Shown: in pieces, positions 44,986 to 50,436 of the stretch
How the letters are laid out: the number at the start of each line of letters is the position of its first letter
Numbering within the stretch: position 1 is the stretch's first letter
NCBI GenBank assembly: GCA_030168575.1
Contig: CP115555.1
Span: 806,001-870,000, forward strand
Length of the DNA: 64,000 nucleotides
Source of the DNA: Methanomassiliicoccales archaeon LGM-RCC1
Lineage (GTDB): Archaea; Thermoplasmatota; Thermoplasmata; Methanomassiliicoccales; Methanomethylophilaceae
Direction of reading: 5' to 3'
Notes under the pieces: model-generated
Seen by the model: the letters and a program-made list of their open reading frames with translations, nothing else
What the model was told of the DNA's origin: nothing
Databases searched by the model: none
Made by a program: the position numbers and the translations under genes

Positions 44986-45008
44986 GATGAGTGGGTCTGC
45001 CCGGGTTT
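44986..45008 (-). repeat. Degenerate copy of the tRNA-Pro 3' end (att-like)
   Basis: The 23 bases match 49260-49282 at 20 positions; the three differences are all transitions. The match covers the 3' acceptor strand and part of the T arm of tRNA-Pro, plus five flanking bases (GATGA) outside the tRNA. Same orientation as the intact tRNA. Confidence 0.55.
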
Positions 45009-45029
45009 AATTTTTCGCGAGCCGACAAA

Positions 45030-45596
45030 GTGGTTCCGGAGGCAATAAAAAAACGGATTTTGAAATCATTGAAGGCGCGTAAGTCGAACTCGACCTGCAA
45101 ACATAGGTGTGGTTTTTCGGTGAGATTGAGCACGGGTGAAGTGGCTAGGAAAGATGTATTCCAGAACCCGGATGGGAACTGCAGGAAGGACAACGAAGAG
45201 ACAGGATCATACGGTGCGGCCACAGGCAGAGCATTCAGATATTCCGACGAGGACTATGCGAACGAGGTCCTCGGCAATGGAAGGATGGTCGGGGACATCC
45301 CATGGATCGACTGGCTGCAGTTCACAATGGATTCGTTGCATTCGCTGATTGGTAACAACTATTTCGGTCAACTGTCTAATAGGAGCATCAAGACAGTCAT
45401 AACCGAAAACTATGGGGTCACTAGGACATGCACATGTTGTGGAGGGCCGCTCAACGTTTACACGCGGATGTGTGATCATTGCGGAGAGGTTGTGACGCAT
45501 ATATTCAACAACAGCGTTCATTGTTTTCACAAGAGCTACCCAGTGGTGAAGCTAGAGGTGATCGAAATTAAAACGCAGCTCAAGGCTCCGATCTGA
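45030..45596 (+). CDS. Zinc-ribbon orphan protein at the left island end
   Basis: The 188-residue protein has a C-terminal treble-clef or ribbon-like unit with CTCCGG...MCDHCGE (two CxxC pairs about 14 residues apart), and an N-terminal basic region with STCKHRCGF. The frame opens at GTG 44991, but those first codons are the tRNA-derived repeat; GTG 45030 lies about 25 bases after TTTAATTTTT and is preferred. ATG starts are absent nearby, so the true start is uncertain. No family recognised; it could be a nucleic-acid-binding regulator of the island. Confidence 0.5.
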   Translation: MVPEAIKKRILKSLKARKSNSTCKHRCGFSVRLSTGEVARKDVFQNPDGNCRKDNEETGSYGAATGRAFRYSDEDYANEVLGNGRMVGDIPWIDWLQFTMDSLHSLIGNNYFGQLSNRSIKTVITENYGVTRTCTCCGGPLNVYTRMCDHCGEVVTHIFNNSVHCFHKSYPVVKLEVIEIKTQLKAPI

Positions 45597-45648
45597 GATG
45601 GGAAAAAGTCACCCGGAAGTGGCATTGGTGGTGTCCATGTAGGAAGTA

Positions 45649-46380
45649 ATGGACAACACCGCCGCATCCAAGCTAAAGATGAGCAACTATGCGTTCCAGG
45701 ATTCAGCGGAACCGCGTCAGGCGGCAGAAGTGACGGCTCTAAAATATTTTGTGGCAGTGGAAAAACGACTTGAATTGACTCTGATGTCAACCCGTTTCAG
45801 GAAAATCGATGAAGAGTCGACACTTGGTTACAAATATGAAAGAAACAATCGGATTATGGTGATGCACATGGAAGATACTGAGGAACTGTCCCCGAAAGGC
45901 AGGCCTATATTGAAGGAAGATTTCGTCGATGAATTGGTCAGGATTCCGAAGTATGTTCCGAGAGGTTCGAAGGATCTGTTCAAGATGAAGGAGGATAACG
46001 GACATCTTAGGTCATCCGTAGAGCTGATCAGCGATCGTGCAAATTACAGTTTCAAATTGTCTACCAGGAAGTCGATCAAAGATCCGGTGGACTTTTCTGT
46101 TGTTTTCACATATTCGGACATCAACGGGAGAGAATACATAATCCGTAGATTCAATGGAGACCATGGCAGACACTATTATAAGAACACGAACAGGTACATA
46201 TCAGGCCCCCACATCCACACCATAACTGAGGCTGCACAAAAAGAATACCATAAAGATGAGACAGAAGCTGTCGAAACCGACCAGTATAAGACTCTTGAAC
46301 AGGCGATCGAATTTGCAATGAAAGAATTGAATATTAGATACGAAGAGGCTAAGGGGACGAAAGATTTATCACAATGGTGA
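45649..46380 (+). CDS. DUF6978-like protein, first gene of a putative two-gene system
   Basis: The 243-residue protein carries, in its C-terminal half, the pattern of the DUF6978 family: YSFKLSTRKSIKDPVDFSVVFTYSD (a beta-rich core) followed by RRFNGDHGRHYYKN and GPHIHTITEAAQKEY with a conserved HxH. The first 70 residues are less typical and several later ATGs (45784, 45856, 45871) could be the start; 45649 has an AGGA sequence four bases upstream. The next gene begins five bases after its stop and encodes DUF1828. Such pairs recur in mobile elements and are suspected toxin-antitoxin or anti-phage units. Confidence 0.6.
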   Translation: MDNTAASKLKMSNYAFQDSAEPRQAAEVTALKYFVAVEKRLELTLMSTRFRKIDEESTLGYKYERNNRIMVMHMEDTEELSPKGRPILKEDFVDELVRIPKYVPRGSKDLFKMKEDNGHLRSSVELISDRANYSFKLSTRKSIKDPVDFSVVFTYSDINGREYIIRRFNGDHGRHYYKNTNRYISGPHIHTITEAAQKEYHKDETEAVETDQYKTLEQAIEFAMKELNIRYEEAKGTKDLSQW

Positions 46381-46384
46381 TGAC

Positions 46385-47146
46385 ATGGACGCAGACGAGT
46401 TGATAGGTTATCTAAAGAAATCCATATGCTCGGGATTGGAGGTCGAGCCCCGTACTGTGAACAGATTCATGGTCCATACAGGTTACACATATCCAGATGG
46501 TGATGAATTGCACATCCTGATGATCAATGAGGATGGCGGTTGGATGTTTTCTGATGAGGGCCACACCATGATGTGGCTTTCGTATGAGGATTTCAATCTC
46601 ACAGACTTGAGAAAGGATCTGTTAGAAAGGACGCTGAAAACTAACGGTGTGTCATTTAAAGACGGTGCTTTGTACATCCCAATCGATACCAGTGCTGTCG
46701 ATTCAATAGGGCTGTCTTTGAAAAGTCTCATCCAAGCCGAGATTCAGGTCGCAGACCTTCTGTATCTGGACAAAGAGACTGTTAAAGATACATTCATAGA
46801 CGATCTTAAGGCAGCGTTTAGCATCTCATCTTTATCCGATAGGTGTTCCTATGATTACAGGATTACGGGCGATGGAGATACTGAATACTATGCAGATGTT
46901 TATGTTAAGAGCAAGATTCCGATCTTGGTTTTTGGGATTCATACAGCATTGCAGTGCTCCAGAGCAACCGTGGCCATGTTGGCGCTCGATAAGAGCGGTT
47001 CACAGTATATGTTCATGGCAGTTTTCGATAACAATACACAGGTCCCTGCAAGAGATCGTAACACAGCGATAAATGCTGCCATAAAGACCACGATAGGGTT
47101 GGAAGGGGCTGTGGAGGGTGCGGAGAGGCTCATCAGTCTGCAATGA
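46385..47146 (+). CDS. DUF1828/DUF1829 protein, partner of the DUF6978-like gene
   Basis: The 253-residue protein fits DUF1828 at the N-terminus (residues about 20-110): VHTGYTYPDGDELHILMINEDGGWMFSDEGHTMMWLSYE, with the family feature of a strand pair ending in D-x-G. The C-terminal part (about 130-250) fits DUF1829, with DYRITGDGDTEYYADVYVKS. The two-domain layout is known from bacteria and phages. It lies five bases downstream of the DUF6978-like gene and is surely co-transcribed. Function unknown. Confidence 0.72.
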   Translation: MDADELIGYLKKSICSGLEVEPRTVNRFMVHTGYTYPDGDELHILMINEDGGWMFSDEGHTMMWLSYEDFNLTDLRKDLLERTLKTNGVSFKDGALYIPIDTSAVDSIGLSLKSLIQAEIQVADLLYLDKETVKDTFIDDLKAAFSISSLSDRCSYDYRITGDGDTEYYADVYVKSKIPILVFGIHTALQCSRATVAMLALDKSGSQYMFMAVFDNNTQVPARDRNTAINAAIKTTIGLEGAVEGAERLISLQ

Positions 47147-47280
47147 TGTGAACGATATTATGTACTAATCGAGCAGAATCATCGACCTTCTCCAATATCA
47201 CATGAGGCTAGTAATGGTTGATCGTTGTGTCAATCGATTATCAAAATCATGTGCTTGTGAAGTCGCGTCTAAGTCTGCAA

Positions 47281-47495
47281 CACTCCCGGCATTTTGGGAG
47301 AGTCATCGTGTTCTTGGCAGCTCTAGAGAGAAGACGGTAAAGGTAGTATCCATCCTAACAGAGTTGCCCGGCGGACGATTGAGCGGACGACGCGCATACG
47401 AGTGAGCTGTTAGCGAAGCGAAGTATGCGGTCGACACTGAAGCGCGCTGTGCGGCACGTCGGGTCTCGGCCCAGTGCCCGTCGCTGGCTTTCTTT
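47281..47495 (+). ncRNA. Candidate structured RNA or structured non-coding segment
   Basis: The 400 bases from 47147 to 47552 hold no credible gene, yet the segment from about 47281 to 47485 is much richer in GC than its surroundings. Stems: CTCCC/GGGAG at about 47283-47300; CGCATAC (47393-47399) with GTATGCG (47423-47429); and GGCAC-gtc-GGG / CCC-a-GTGCC (47453-47478). TTTCTTTTTATT follows at about 47489-47500 like a terminator. No known RNA family was recognised. A decayed foreign gene is the alternative. Confidence 0.3.
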
Positions 47496-47552
47496 TTATT
47501 GTCACTCCACTATCTTCATTTTTTTGGAGATAATTATATCCACCCATTTCTA

Positions 47553-47903
47553 ATGCCTATATCAATGAAGGGTATTGTCTTTAATGGGCCTGTTGGTTCT
47601 GCTCAAGTTCAACAAGAAACTACCGACTCGGTTATGGTTAATTCCATCATTGTTAATTATTGTACTAATGCCCAAGAGACTCTAGATGCTTTATTGGAGT
47701 ACAAGAGTTCTTTCGATGATGTATTTGGAATTAAAGCATCAGATGTTTCTAAATCAATAGAAATGATACAAGATGGAATCGATTGTAAAAACGAATCCAG
47801 AATTAAAAAGGGATTTGGCATTTTGAAAAATATTCTCTTAGGTGTTCCACCGGGATTGATAAGCAATGCATTATCAACAATACTAACAAACGGAGGTTTT
47901 TGA
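47553..47903 (+). CDS. Small AT-rich partner gene of the AbiTii module
   Basis: The 116-residue protein has a beta-like N-terminus (SMKGIVFNGPVGSAQVQQETTD), a helical middle and an amphipathic or hydrophobic end (GFGILKNILLGVPPGLISNALSTIL) that could contact membranes. Family not recognised. ATG 47553 lies about 25 bases after ATAATTATATCC, suiting a leaderless transcript. Its stop is followed immediately by the AbiTii ATG, so both proteins are made from one message. Codons are strongly AT-biased against neighbours, a sign of recent transfer. Confidence 0.65.
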   Translation: MPISMKGIVFNGPVGSAQVQQETTDSVMVNSIIVNYCTNAQETLDALLEYKSSFDDVFGIKASDVSKSIEMIQDGIDCKNESRIKKGFGILKNILLGVPPGLISNALSTILTNGGF

Positions 47904-48560
47904 ATGATAGATTTCATTCAAGATATTCAGTCTTCCTGTGTTAATCAATCTGATGATGTTATTGCCCTTCTGCGCAAAGCCTATATTGTTGCTAGAAAAC
48001 TAAGTCAATCAGAATTTCAATCTTGGATAGACAATGAGCTAAAAGGATACCCCAGCACAGATAAAGTTCCTCAGTATAGGAAAGTATCTGGAATGATATA
48101 TGCACGTTGGATAAGCGGGAACTACATTCCTGTTCAATTGGATGATGAAAGTACAAAGCGTCTAACTCGTAGATCGATTACACACTCAATTCCAGAAATA
48201 ATATCTCTATTGGATAATAACAAGCAACAATATTTTGAGTTGCCATTCATGGGCGACATTAATCAAGCCATTGGCGTTTTAACTGGTCATGAAGCACAAT
48301 ATTATCTCTTTGTAGGTAAGGACCAATTTCAGGGGATTATTGAGGAAGTAATAAACACAATTCTTCGTTGGTCATTTACAATAGAAGAAAACGGTACCAA
48401 AGAATGTCAATTACCAGACTTAATAGTAAACAAAGAGGATGGTAAGAATCAATCTGAATCGAATTGTGTTCCCTCACTAATTTTTAATAATGAGGTAGCT
48501 TCCGTGCAGATTCAGGTAAACAGTTCAAATTCTTGTCAGAAAACAGGTAAAGAGGACTAA
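47904..48560 (+). CDS. AbiTii-domain protein
   Basis: The 218-residue protein opens with an AbiTii-type domain: SDDVIALLRKAYIVARKLSQSEFQSWIDNELKGYPSTDKVPQYR matches the characteristic pattern of an ArkL-helix followed by W-x-x-x-E-L-x-G-Y and P-x-Y-R. AbiTii domains are linked with abortive-infection and other defence loci. The rest (about 90-218) is beta-rich and unassigned. The ATG has a strong GGAGGT eight bases upstream, lying inside the preceding gene, and abuts its stop. Strong AT bias as in the partner gene. Confidence 0.75.
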   Translation: MIDFIQDIQSSCVNQSDDVIALLRKAYIVARKLSQSEFQSWIDNELKGYPSTDKVPQYRKVSGMIYARWISGNYIPVQLDDESTKRLTRRSITHSIPEIISLLDNNKQQYFELPFMGDINQAIGVLTGHEAQYYLFVGKDQFQGIIEEVINTILRWSFTIEENGTKECQLPDLIVNKEDGKNQSESNCVPSLIFNNEVASVQIQVNSSNSCQKTGKED

Positions 48561-48653
48561 ATCGAGACTATCTCACTCATATTATGTTGAAACGAACTGA
48601 AAAAGACGAGTTATTGAACTGAATTGATAAAGGCTTTCAGTATCCTGCCTTAT

Positions 48654-48677
48654 ATGTACCGTGTAAAATCGGTACAT
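48654..48677. promoter_or_regulatory. Perfect 8-bp inverted repeat downstream of the AbiTii gene
   Basis: ATGTACCG TGTAAAAT CGGTACAT could be an operator or an RNA hairpin. It lies about 95 bases after the AbiTii stop and overlaps a TATA-like TTATATG. It may regulate a plus-strand transcript or end one. Confidence 0.4.
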
Positions 48678-48708
48678 TATGAAGATGATTGGAATCATCT
48701 GCATAGCT

Positions 48709-48942
48709 TCATTCACGACTTCTAATCATCTTAGATGTAAAAAATAAAAAGGCACCGAGTGCCAACAAAATCAAGGTTACCTCCGGAGATATGACGTCTG
48801 CTATTACATTGATAAGACTGCCTTCAACACCGCCTACCTCTGATCCCATTCCTCTTATTATTTCGACTAGTACAGATACTACCAGTAACAGAACCAGAAA
48901 AGACTCGACGTAGTTTTCTGCAGAAGCGCCTATTTTTCCCAT
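48709..48942 (-). CDS. Small two-helix membrane protein in the island
   Basis: The 77-residue product has two hydrophobic helices (YVESFLVLLLVVSVLVEII and PEVTLILLALGAFLFFTSKM) joined by a loop of about 25 residues, with a basic tail. ATG 48942 is favoured over 48984 by an AT-rich box about 28 bases upstream. It is AT-rich like the AbiTii module, but on the other strand. Small membrane proteins in defence islands may be pore-forming effectors; this is only a possibility. Confidence 0.5.
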   Translation of the reverse strand: MGKIGASAENYVESFLVLLLVVSVLVEIIRGMGSEVGGVEGSLINVIADVISPEVTLILLALGAFLFFTSKMIRSRE

Positions 48943-48984
48943 GATTGAGACTATAGATTGAGCTAGAATAATGTTTTTCCGCAC

Positions 48985-49263
48985 TGTTCAGTTTTTCTGA
49001 AGAATCTGTCAGAATAAGGAATGAAGGGATATTTGGGCCCAAACCGAAAAACCATATTATCCCCATCATACACTCAAACGGAGTCGAAATGAAGATCTAT
49101 CTTGACAATTAATGATATGGTCACCCATTGGGTCCAAAGCGGGTTCGGGTCGACCTTTAGGTAAGATCGGACTCAAGCCCGCCAAAAACCCTTTAGATCA
49201 TACGAAAAAACATGGCCAGACTTCAAAGTCAGCCCTCGAATTATGTAAATAAGCATAAAGATG
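48985..49263. other. Gene-poor island end with one long hairpin
   Basis: No credible gene. The segment holds an imperfect 13-bp stem, GCGGGTTCGGGTC (49139-49151) with GACTCAAGCCCGC (49170-49182), with two G-T pairs and one mismatch, and an inner ACCT/AGGT. No T-run follows on the plus strand. Confidence 0.4.
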
Positions 49264-49340
49264 AGTGGGCCTACCCGGATTTGAACCGGGGTCAATGGCT
49301 CCCAAAGCCACAAGTATACCAAGCTAGCCCATAGGCCCAC
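49264..49340 (-). tRNA. tRNA-Pro(TGG)
   Basis: On the minus strand the acceptor GTGGGCC pairs with GGCCCAC, the anticodon stem GTGGC/GCCAT encloses TTTGGGA (anticodon TGG), and the T arm is CCGG-TTCAAAT-CCGG. CCA is not encoded, and the discriminator would be U, unusual for tRNA-Pro. No intron. Fragments of both ends recur nearby: 3' end at 44986-45008 and 5' end at 50437-50459. Confidence 0.93.
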
Positions 49341-49386: not shown

Positions 49387-50379
49387 TCATTCCGTTCTTT
49401 TGTACCGTTGTTTGGTGGTGCGTGGACTGTCCGGATACTCCATCTCTATCAGTCCATGTTCCCTTGCTGGTTTGATGTAAGATCTGAGGAAAGATGGGCG
49501 TGATTTGTAGGATTGGAGTTCCATGAGCTCTTTGACGCTGTAGTACTTACCAGATTCCATCTTTAGGATGAATTTCGTCAGATGTCTTGGAGGCGCTTCC
49601 GTGGCTGTTCTGATCTCGGCCATCGAATCCTCAAGTGCATTCAGTATCATCCTCAGCATGAATTCTATGAATCTGTTGGAATTTCCTGCTGAATTGCAGA
49701 AGTTGATCGAATCATAGTATTCCTGCTGGGCCTTCAGGATTCTGTTCTCTATGGGGATCCAATGGAAGATAGCCTTCCATTTCCCGAGCAGTGCGGTCTG
49801 CCAGAGTCTTGCCATCCTCCCGTTGCCGTCGGAGAACGGATGTATGAAGACCATCTCATAATGGAATACGCAAGATGCAATCAGGGGATTGACTGTGGAT
49901 GATGACTCATTCAGCCATGCGAATAGGTTCTCCATATGGGACGGTACGAATTCCGGGGGCGGGCACATGTACACGAACCTGTCTCCGGCGAACACTCCCT
50001 CCGCACCAGAACGGAACCTCCCAGCTTCTTTCTCCAGATTCCTTACGATTATCCCATGGAGTTTGAGAAAATCATCCATACTGTATGGGTCGAAATCACC
50101 TAGAAGGGAATAGGCCTCGATAGCGTTCTTCACCTCCAATACCTCGTCTTTGGGGCCGATAACCTTGCGACCGTCGATTATATCCTCTACTTGGCCGACG
50201 GAAAGGGAGTTGGCCTCGATAGCGCACGATGAATGGATGGACCTGATACGATTTTGCTTTCTCAGTTTCGGATGGGGGTCTAGAAGCTCATAATGCTCTA
50301 TGCTGTTGACAAGTTCGCCTATGCGGAACACCATGTCCAACATAGTCTGTGAGATCGTGAAAGGAGGAGCTTCAGACAT
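49387..50379 (-). CDS. Fic-domain protein (class II-like) with winged-helix end
   Basis: The 330-residue protein has the Fic active-site motif HPFSDGNGRMAR near residue 175 (His plus the phosphate-binding loop), so AMP transfer or a related reaction is possible. Before it lies SSCAIEANSLSV near residue 50, close to the inhibitory motif S/T-x-x-x-E-G-N of class II Fic proteins, with Ala for Gly. The C-terminal 70 residues look like a winged helix (YSVKELMELQSYKSRPSFLRSYI), common in Fic regulators. ATG 50379 was chosen since promoter repeats lie just upstream. It sits between tRNA-Pro and its 5' fragment. Confidence 0.88.
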   Translation of the reverse strand: MSEAPPFTISQTMLDMVFRIGELVNSIEHYELLDPHPKLRKQNRIRSIHSSCAIEANSLSVGQVEDIIDGRKVIGPKDEVLEVKNAIEAYSLLGDFDPYSMDDFLKLHGIIVRNLEKEAGRFRSGAEGVFAGDRFVYMCPPPEFVPSHMENLFAWLNESSSTVNPLIASCVFHYEMVFIHPFSDGNGRMARLWQTALLGKWKAIFHWIPIENRILKAQQEYYDSINFCNSAGNSNRFIEFMLRMILNALEDSMAEIRTATEAPPRHLTKFILKMESGKYYSVKELMELQSYKSRPSFLRSYIKPAREHGLIEMEYPDSPRTTKQRYKRTE

Positions 50380-50407
50380 ATATCTCACATATATCTTACA
50401 TATATCT
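50376..50407. repeat. Three tandem 10-mers at the Fic promoter
   Basis: ACATATATCT occurs at 50376-50385, 50387-50396 and 50398-50407, an 11-base period, with single bases in between. The block covers the likely TATA and start region of the Fic gene. A fourth exact copy is at 50458-50467, next to the tRNA fragment. An autoregulatory operator is likely. Confidence 0.65.
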
Positions 50408-50436
50408 AAAATTATCGTCAATCTGCAACCAAAATG

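Follow-up and report, generated by a model that had tools for sequence, protein, structure and literature searches.

The abiTi-abiTii gene pair

The window analyzed here, a 64,000-nucleotide stretch of contig CP115555.1 (positions 806,001 to 870,000) from the 1.66-Mb genome of the Methanomassiliicoccales archaeon LGM-RCC1, carries two small genes, abiTi and abiTii, that lie next to each other on the plus strand and in the same reading frame. According to the list of open reading frames (ORFs), abiTi (47553 to 47903, plus strand) encodes a 116-aa protein that matches the AbiTi profile PDLC02333 of PADLOC with an E value of 2e-13; an alternative start ATG at position 47565 (plus strand) would yield a product of 112 aa. 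Its TGA stop codon (47901 to 47903) directly abuts the ATG of abiTii (47904 to 48560, plus strand), whose ribosome-binding site, GGAGGT (47892 to 47897, plus strand), is located within abiTi, 6 nt 5' of that ATG. The 218-aa AbiTii protein matches the Pfam profile PF18864 (121.8 bits at a cut-off of 27.6 bits; E value of 5e-35) and the PADLOC profile PDLC02334 (E value of 3.9e-38). An initial annotation made from the DNA sequence had listed these ORFs, the stop-ATG junction, and the internal GGAGGT exactly as they are found, and the AbiTii domain that it placed at the N terminus of the second protein was borne out by the profile search. The assignment of the 116-residue protein to an unknown family is ruled out by the PADLOC match to AbiTi. 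The AT richness of the pair, also pointed out in that annotation, is pronounced, with GC contents of 34.5% (abiTi) and 35.6% (abiTii) in a window of 53.3% GC and with third-position GC contents (GC3) of 26% and 28%, respectively, compared with 73 to 76% in the neighboring core genes cca and ilvC.

The first protein consists of an N-terminal motif, IVFNGPVGSAQVQQETTDS (residues 8 to 26; 47574 to 47630, plus strand), followed by a helical domain that is hydrophobic at its C-terminal end (approximately residues 40 to 116; 47670 to 47900, plus strand), a putative effector delineated by the helices in AlphaFold2 (AF2) models and by homology to the C-terminal domain of fused AbiTii proteins (see below). 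As initially noted, the C-terminal region is the most hydrophobic part of AbiTi; the best 19-residue Kyte-Doolittle mean, however, is only 1.47 (residues 94 to 112), which is short of the standard transmembrane score and leaves it uncertain whether there is a clear transmembrane helix. AbiTii contains an alpha+beta domain (residues 5 to 164 by Pfam coordinates; 47916 to 48395, plus strand), modeled with pLDDT values mostly of 92 to 98, and a C-terminal motif, LIFNNEVASVQIQVNSSNS (residues 192 to 210; 48477 to 48533, plus strand), modeled with low confidence. The alpha+beta domain includes the conserved Glu45; in alignments with relatives, Trp41, Glu45, Leu46, Gly48, and Tyr49 are invariant. 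A conserved glutamate of AbiTii is named in PMC3710099, and it is our reading that this residue is Glu45 of the window protein.

The AbiT abortive-infection system of Lactococcus lactis, encoded by abiTi and abiTii, was described by Bouchard et al. in 2002 (cited in PMC3985639). Like the window pair, it consists of two genes, for a small AbiTi and a larger AbiTii, that are matched by curated PADLOC and Pfam profiles; unlike it, the window pair resides in an archaeal host, on an AT-rich island at a tRNA-Pro gene. Since the matches to the AbiTi and AbiTii profiles adjoin each other in one orientation, both halves of lactococcal AbiT are present, and, judging from these profiles, the window pair is almost certainly a complete two-gene AbiT system. 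The presence of AbiT in an archaeon is thus an ordinary identification, with the mechanism proposed below as its unusual by-product.

Genomic context

The two genes belong to a 4.27-kb accessory island bracketed by 23-nt att-like direct repeats at positions 44986 to 45008 and 49260 to 49282 (both on the plus strand; 87% identical over 23 nt), the right one of which overlaps the 3' end of the tRNA-Pro gene (49265 to 49338, minus strand) that adjoins the AT-rich stretch with abiTi and abiTii. No integrase gene was found within this ∼4.3-kb interval (44986 to 49282). Further cargo of the island consists of a DUF6978-like gene and a DUF1828 gene (45649 to 47146, plus strand), recognized by Pfam and PADLOC profile matches; the DUF1828 protein matches the PADLOC candidate defense family PDC-M24B with an E value of 5.8e-16. 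Within the AT-rich island there is also a GC-rich noncoding stretch (47340 to 47490), present in one copy in the genome; it was rejected as a candidate RNA element on account of its single copy and the absence of any Rfam match. A gene for a Fic-domain protein related to SoFic (49387 to 50421, minus strand) adjoins the island.

The island stretch is absent from another genome of the same species (G223), where a YgbA-like gene directly adjoins the tRNA gene and where profile searches found neither AbiTi nor AbiTii. The left boundary of this variable region can be placed only approximately, because the YgbA stretch is only 83% alike and is on a separate contig from the region further left. In related species, the same spot at tRNA-Pro holds other genes (loci L099 and L100). 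In profile searches, AbiTii was present in 3 of the 147 genomes of the methanogen order to which the window belongs, and a search of the non-subscription literature yielded no description of archaeal AbiT. Accordingly, the view of the initial annotation that this system is little described holds for its archaeal occurrence, which is real and rare, but not for the AbiTi/AbiTii pairing, known from the lactococcal system since 2002.

Fused and split relatives

Scanning 84,980 species genomes yielded 37 related loci. At 32 of them, a single protein comprises AbiTii and a C-terminal domain; 2 others (L031 and L036, the latter from Methanomassiliicoccaceae archaeon Lab288P1bin1) have two separate genes, and the remaining 3 look like broken fused genes. 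The fused proteins share the same order of parts: the AbiTii domain, a motif of ∼20 residues, and a helical domain, hydrophobic at its end and AbiTi-like in many of them. The AbiTi profile of PADLOC matches the C-terminal halves of fused AbiTii homologs (E values of 2e-17 in L019, 6e-14 in L020, and 3e-12 in L041), and a comparison of AbiTi with the fused C-terminal domain by hhalign gives a probability of 98.3 and an E value of 2.1e-14 even with the motif omitted; AbiTi therefore corresponds to the detached C-terminal half of the fused proteins. Some fused proteins keep the N-terminal AbiTii part but have a different C-terminal domain, together with a changed motif. As to the question, raised in the initial annotation, of whether the 116-residue family always precedes AbiTii, two-gene loci do exist, but a separate AbiTi is not always located 5' of AbiTii, and in most homologs AbiTii is fused to an AbiTi-like or another effector domain on its C-terminal side.

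Among the split loci, the pair in L002 (genome G056, from the same family as the window genome) is the same as that in L036. Another methanogen of the family (L102; 1399 to 2264, minus strand) encodes AbiTii next to a 64-aa hydrophobic protein with a single helix, whose N terminus resembles the C terminus of AbiTii (an IGDNN-type motif) and which is a possible alternative effector. Genes of the AbiTii-motif-effector type are arranged in tandem on the Aeromonas plasmid pAER-f909 (L071; 2278 to 9624), where the motifs are 71% alike and the AbiTii parts 44%. Three consecutive AbiTii paralogs are encoded in Fibrobacter (L055; 3347 to 5792), the first of which has the motif at its end and no effector domain. 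In L031 (3335 to 3991) and L083 (2480 to 3106), the AbiTi-like effector and the motif are joined to an additional N-terminal domain, a combination that also occurs without AbiTii in Agrobacterium; this extra domain alone matches enterobacterial plasmid proteins that are named nucleotide-binding proteins. Searches of plasmids for additional two-gene loci with short AbiTi queries gave no useful match, scans of viral contigs with closer queries added few further loci, and surveys of Bacillota produced 2 to 3 hits in 398 genomes.

A motif shared by the two proteins

The motif between the fused halves (∼20 residues) is rich in Asn, Ser, Ile, Gln, Val, Gly, and Thr; its most common type is NxxGxVxxSQIQxxSxxSxQ. 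In the two-gene loci, the motif is found in both proteins, at or near the C terminus of AbiTii and at the N terminus of the effector or ahead of its helical domain. The PADLOC AbiTi profile covers the N-terminal motif region, with the matches starting at profile positions 2 to 5, and the only invariant columns in an alignment of 13 AbiTi sequences, two Gln and one Ser, are all within the motif. The mean information content of the motif is 2.31 bits, compared to 2.35 bits for the folded AbiTii domain.

In 5 of the 5 two-gene loci compared (the window, L002, L031, L080 from Synechococcus, and the methanogen locus L102), the top-scoring local alignment between the two full-length proteins pairs motif with motif, although the partner in L080 matches PDC-M14B rather than AbiTi and the partner in L102 (64 aa, with one hydrophobic stretch) has no AbiTi match. 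When the whole proteins were shuffled, the observed score was reached in 40 of 2,000 shuffles for the window pair (40 to 49 across runs), in 17 for each of L002 and L031, in none for L080, and in 121 for L102; shuffles that preserved local composition within the motif segments, which were picked by eye, gave P values of ≤2e-4 for four loci and of 0.011 for L102. Summed over six loci, a small sample made up of these five and a Fibrobacter pair of tandem AbiTii paralogs, the cognate assignment of motifs outscores every other one of the 720 possible pairings; it also ranks first of 24 for the four strongest loci alone. The motif types of L080 and L102 are unlike the common one, and each matches its own partner. 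Cognate motifs are not always the top match: of 41 motifs from fused relatives, 2 score at least as high as the cognate motif for the window, 8 for L002, and 4 for L031. The motifs of the window pair, which also align with those of the relatives, are divergent, being identical at 7 of 19 positions. In the non-subscription literature that was searched, the passages of the papers that name AbiTii do not mention the shared motif, so the novelty of this observation is provisional.

Structural models

In the AF2 model of a natural fusion protein, L020, the AbiTii part forms a confident alpha+beta domain and the effector part consists of four confident helices, while the pLDDT drops below 50 exactly at residues 190 to 212, which constitute the motif. 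In monomer models, the motif is thus predicted to be disordered, although it is conserved like the folded AbiTii domain. The structure of the pair, foreseen in the initial annotation, was modeled as a read-through chain, solely to view both parts together: AbiTii was predicted with confidence, but residues 1 to 40 of AbiTi and the tail of AbiTii were not, and no motif-motif contact was predicted with confidence in this chain (a contact that monomer AF2 is not expected to reveal). The models searched had no match among PDB or BFVD structures at an E value of 0.001, nor did any PDB sequence match significantly, so that the fold of AbiTii offers no functional clue.

Proposed mechanism and alternative explanations

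The AbiT system has been known since 2002, and its mechanism is unknown according to a 2023 review (PMC10286901), which maps phage escape from AbiT to the capsid and two early genes. Together, the shared motif, the fusions among the relatives, and the exchange of effectors allow a concrete, testable scheme of sensor, coupler, and killer. The alpha+beta domain of AbiTii would sense a cue of infection and oligomerize, and its C-terminal motif would pair homotypically, through beta-strands, with the N-terminal motif of AbiTi. Oligomerized AbiTii would thereby nucleate the assembly of AbiTi, a putative killer built as a small bundle of helices whose C-terminal end is hydrophobic; once assembled, AbiTi would act on the membrane and stop the cell. 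For the majority of bacterial relatives, these parts would operate within a single chain, in the order AbiTii, motif, effector. We infer the sensing, the membrane action, the physical pairing, and its beta or amyloid form from the features described above, and we put the probability of this division of labor (AbiTii as the sensor, AbiTi as the membrane-acting killer, and the motif as their homotypic coupler) at roughly 55%. The lactococcal AbiTi and AbiTii are both nontoxic in Escherichia coli, according to PMC3985639, which we count against this mechanism. The motifs may pair as an amyloid or through a simpler interface; that the coupler is a true amyloid is a tentative suggestion, which we would not favor over its negation. 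The broadest version of the proposal is slightly more tentative still, namely that AbiT might be an NLR-free amyloid-signaling death system in which AbiTii templates AbiTi by matching cross-beta motifs, and that its cassette of sensor, motif, and effector, whether in one protein or two and with effectors that can be exchanged, might extend across bacteria and methanogenic archaea.

The simpler interface could be a constitutive tether or a small oligomerization element, for instance a beta trimer, keeping AbiTi and AbiTii in a stable complex, from which AbiTii altered by infection would release or expose AbiTi without any templated polymer. Natural fusions, which combine both halves and a single motif in one chain, suit a permanent complex as well as they suit templating, and cognate matching is to be expected of any specific interface. 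Nevertheless, the composition of the motif and its disorder in monomer models argue against a tether, as does the presence of the motif in both partners of split genes, similar to known amyloid couplers, and we regard this explanation as unlikely, if the strongest of the alternatives. The doubt raised by the island copy itself is of a different kind: the motifs of the window pair have diverged further than in most other pairs, AbiTii residues 165 to 190 depart from the GEGMTF consensus, and the pair is missing in the same-species genome, all of which would fit a decaying, nonworking copy whose motif resemblance is a relic of a split fused ancestor. Given that both ORFs are intact, that the ribosome-binding site and its spacing are good, and that the motif resemblance has been retained despite wide divergence elsewhere, such decay appears improbable.

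A toxin-antitoxin module, with AbiTi as the toxin and AbiTii as a neutralizer whose inhibition is relieved by infection, would also fit two small genes that abut and share an orientation. As reported in PMC3985639, AbiTi from C. catus alone inhibits E. coli, but AbiTii from C. catus did not neutralize it; this result, along with the predominance of single-chain fusions among the relatives, makes a toxin-antitoxin arrangement quite improbable. Fusions of AbiTii to the HEPN families Ymh and c2405 (described in PMC3710099) have led to the proposal of a HEPN-type RNase, which could be considered for AbiTi and the C-terminal part of the fused proteins as well. However, c2405 itself lacks the Arg residue, according to the same paper, conservation in the AbiTi-like domain is highest for Ile, Pro, Ala, Glu, Lys, and Gly residues, and the window AbiTi contains no histidine at all, making an R-X4-6-H active site impossible in this protein; a HEPN-type RNase was rejected as a candidate for the window AbiTi, and we consider such an activity very improbable for this part in general.

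Comparison with other signaling systems

The proposed coupling by matching motifs has its closest precedents in the bacterial amyloid signaling motifs BASS1 to BASS10, which link NLR sensors to Bell effectors (Dyrka 2020, described in PMC7889193). According to the latter paper, matching motifs are found there in adjacent NLR and Bell genes, and the small Bell domain is helical and includes a hydrophobic helix. Pairwise alignment of neighboring genes has likewise revealed an archaeal motif of the BASS sort on the NLR side (PMC8086366). AbiT resembles these pairs in having a short matching motif in adjoining genes for the putative sensor and effector, and in an effector that is modeled as a helical bundle. 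In contrast to them, the candidate sensor is AbiTii, no NLR domain was matched, and the motif is at the C terminus of the sensor and the N terminus of the effector, which is the reverse of the BASS arrangement. The amyloid form of AbiT is proposed by likeness of logic, and no sequence kinship with the BASS motifs is claimed. A similar analogy can be drawn with the fungal HET-S/NLR system, as the motif of a sensor would template that of an effector and unleash a membrane-active helical domain; AbiT differs from it in the lack of an NLR, and neither a sequence relationship nor a structural match between the two was found. If the proposed mechanism is true, death signaling by homotypic motifs would no longer be confined to NLR systems and would include an archaeal locus.

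Parts of the same scheme recur in PDC-M14B of PADLOC, a candidate system. Its N-terminal part differs from that of AbiTii, but, similarly to the fused AbiTii proteins, it has a C-terminal motif and an effector region related to AbiTi, with the PDC-M14B profile PDLC04451 matching L020 at an E value of 3.6e-10.
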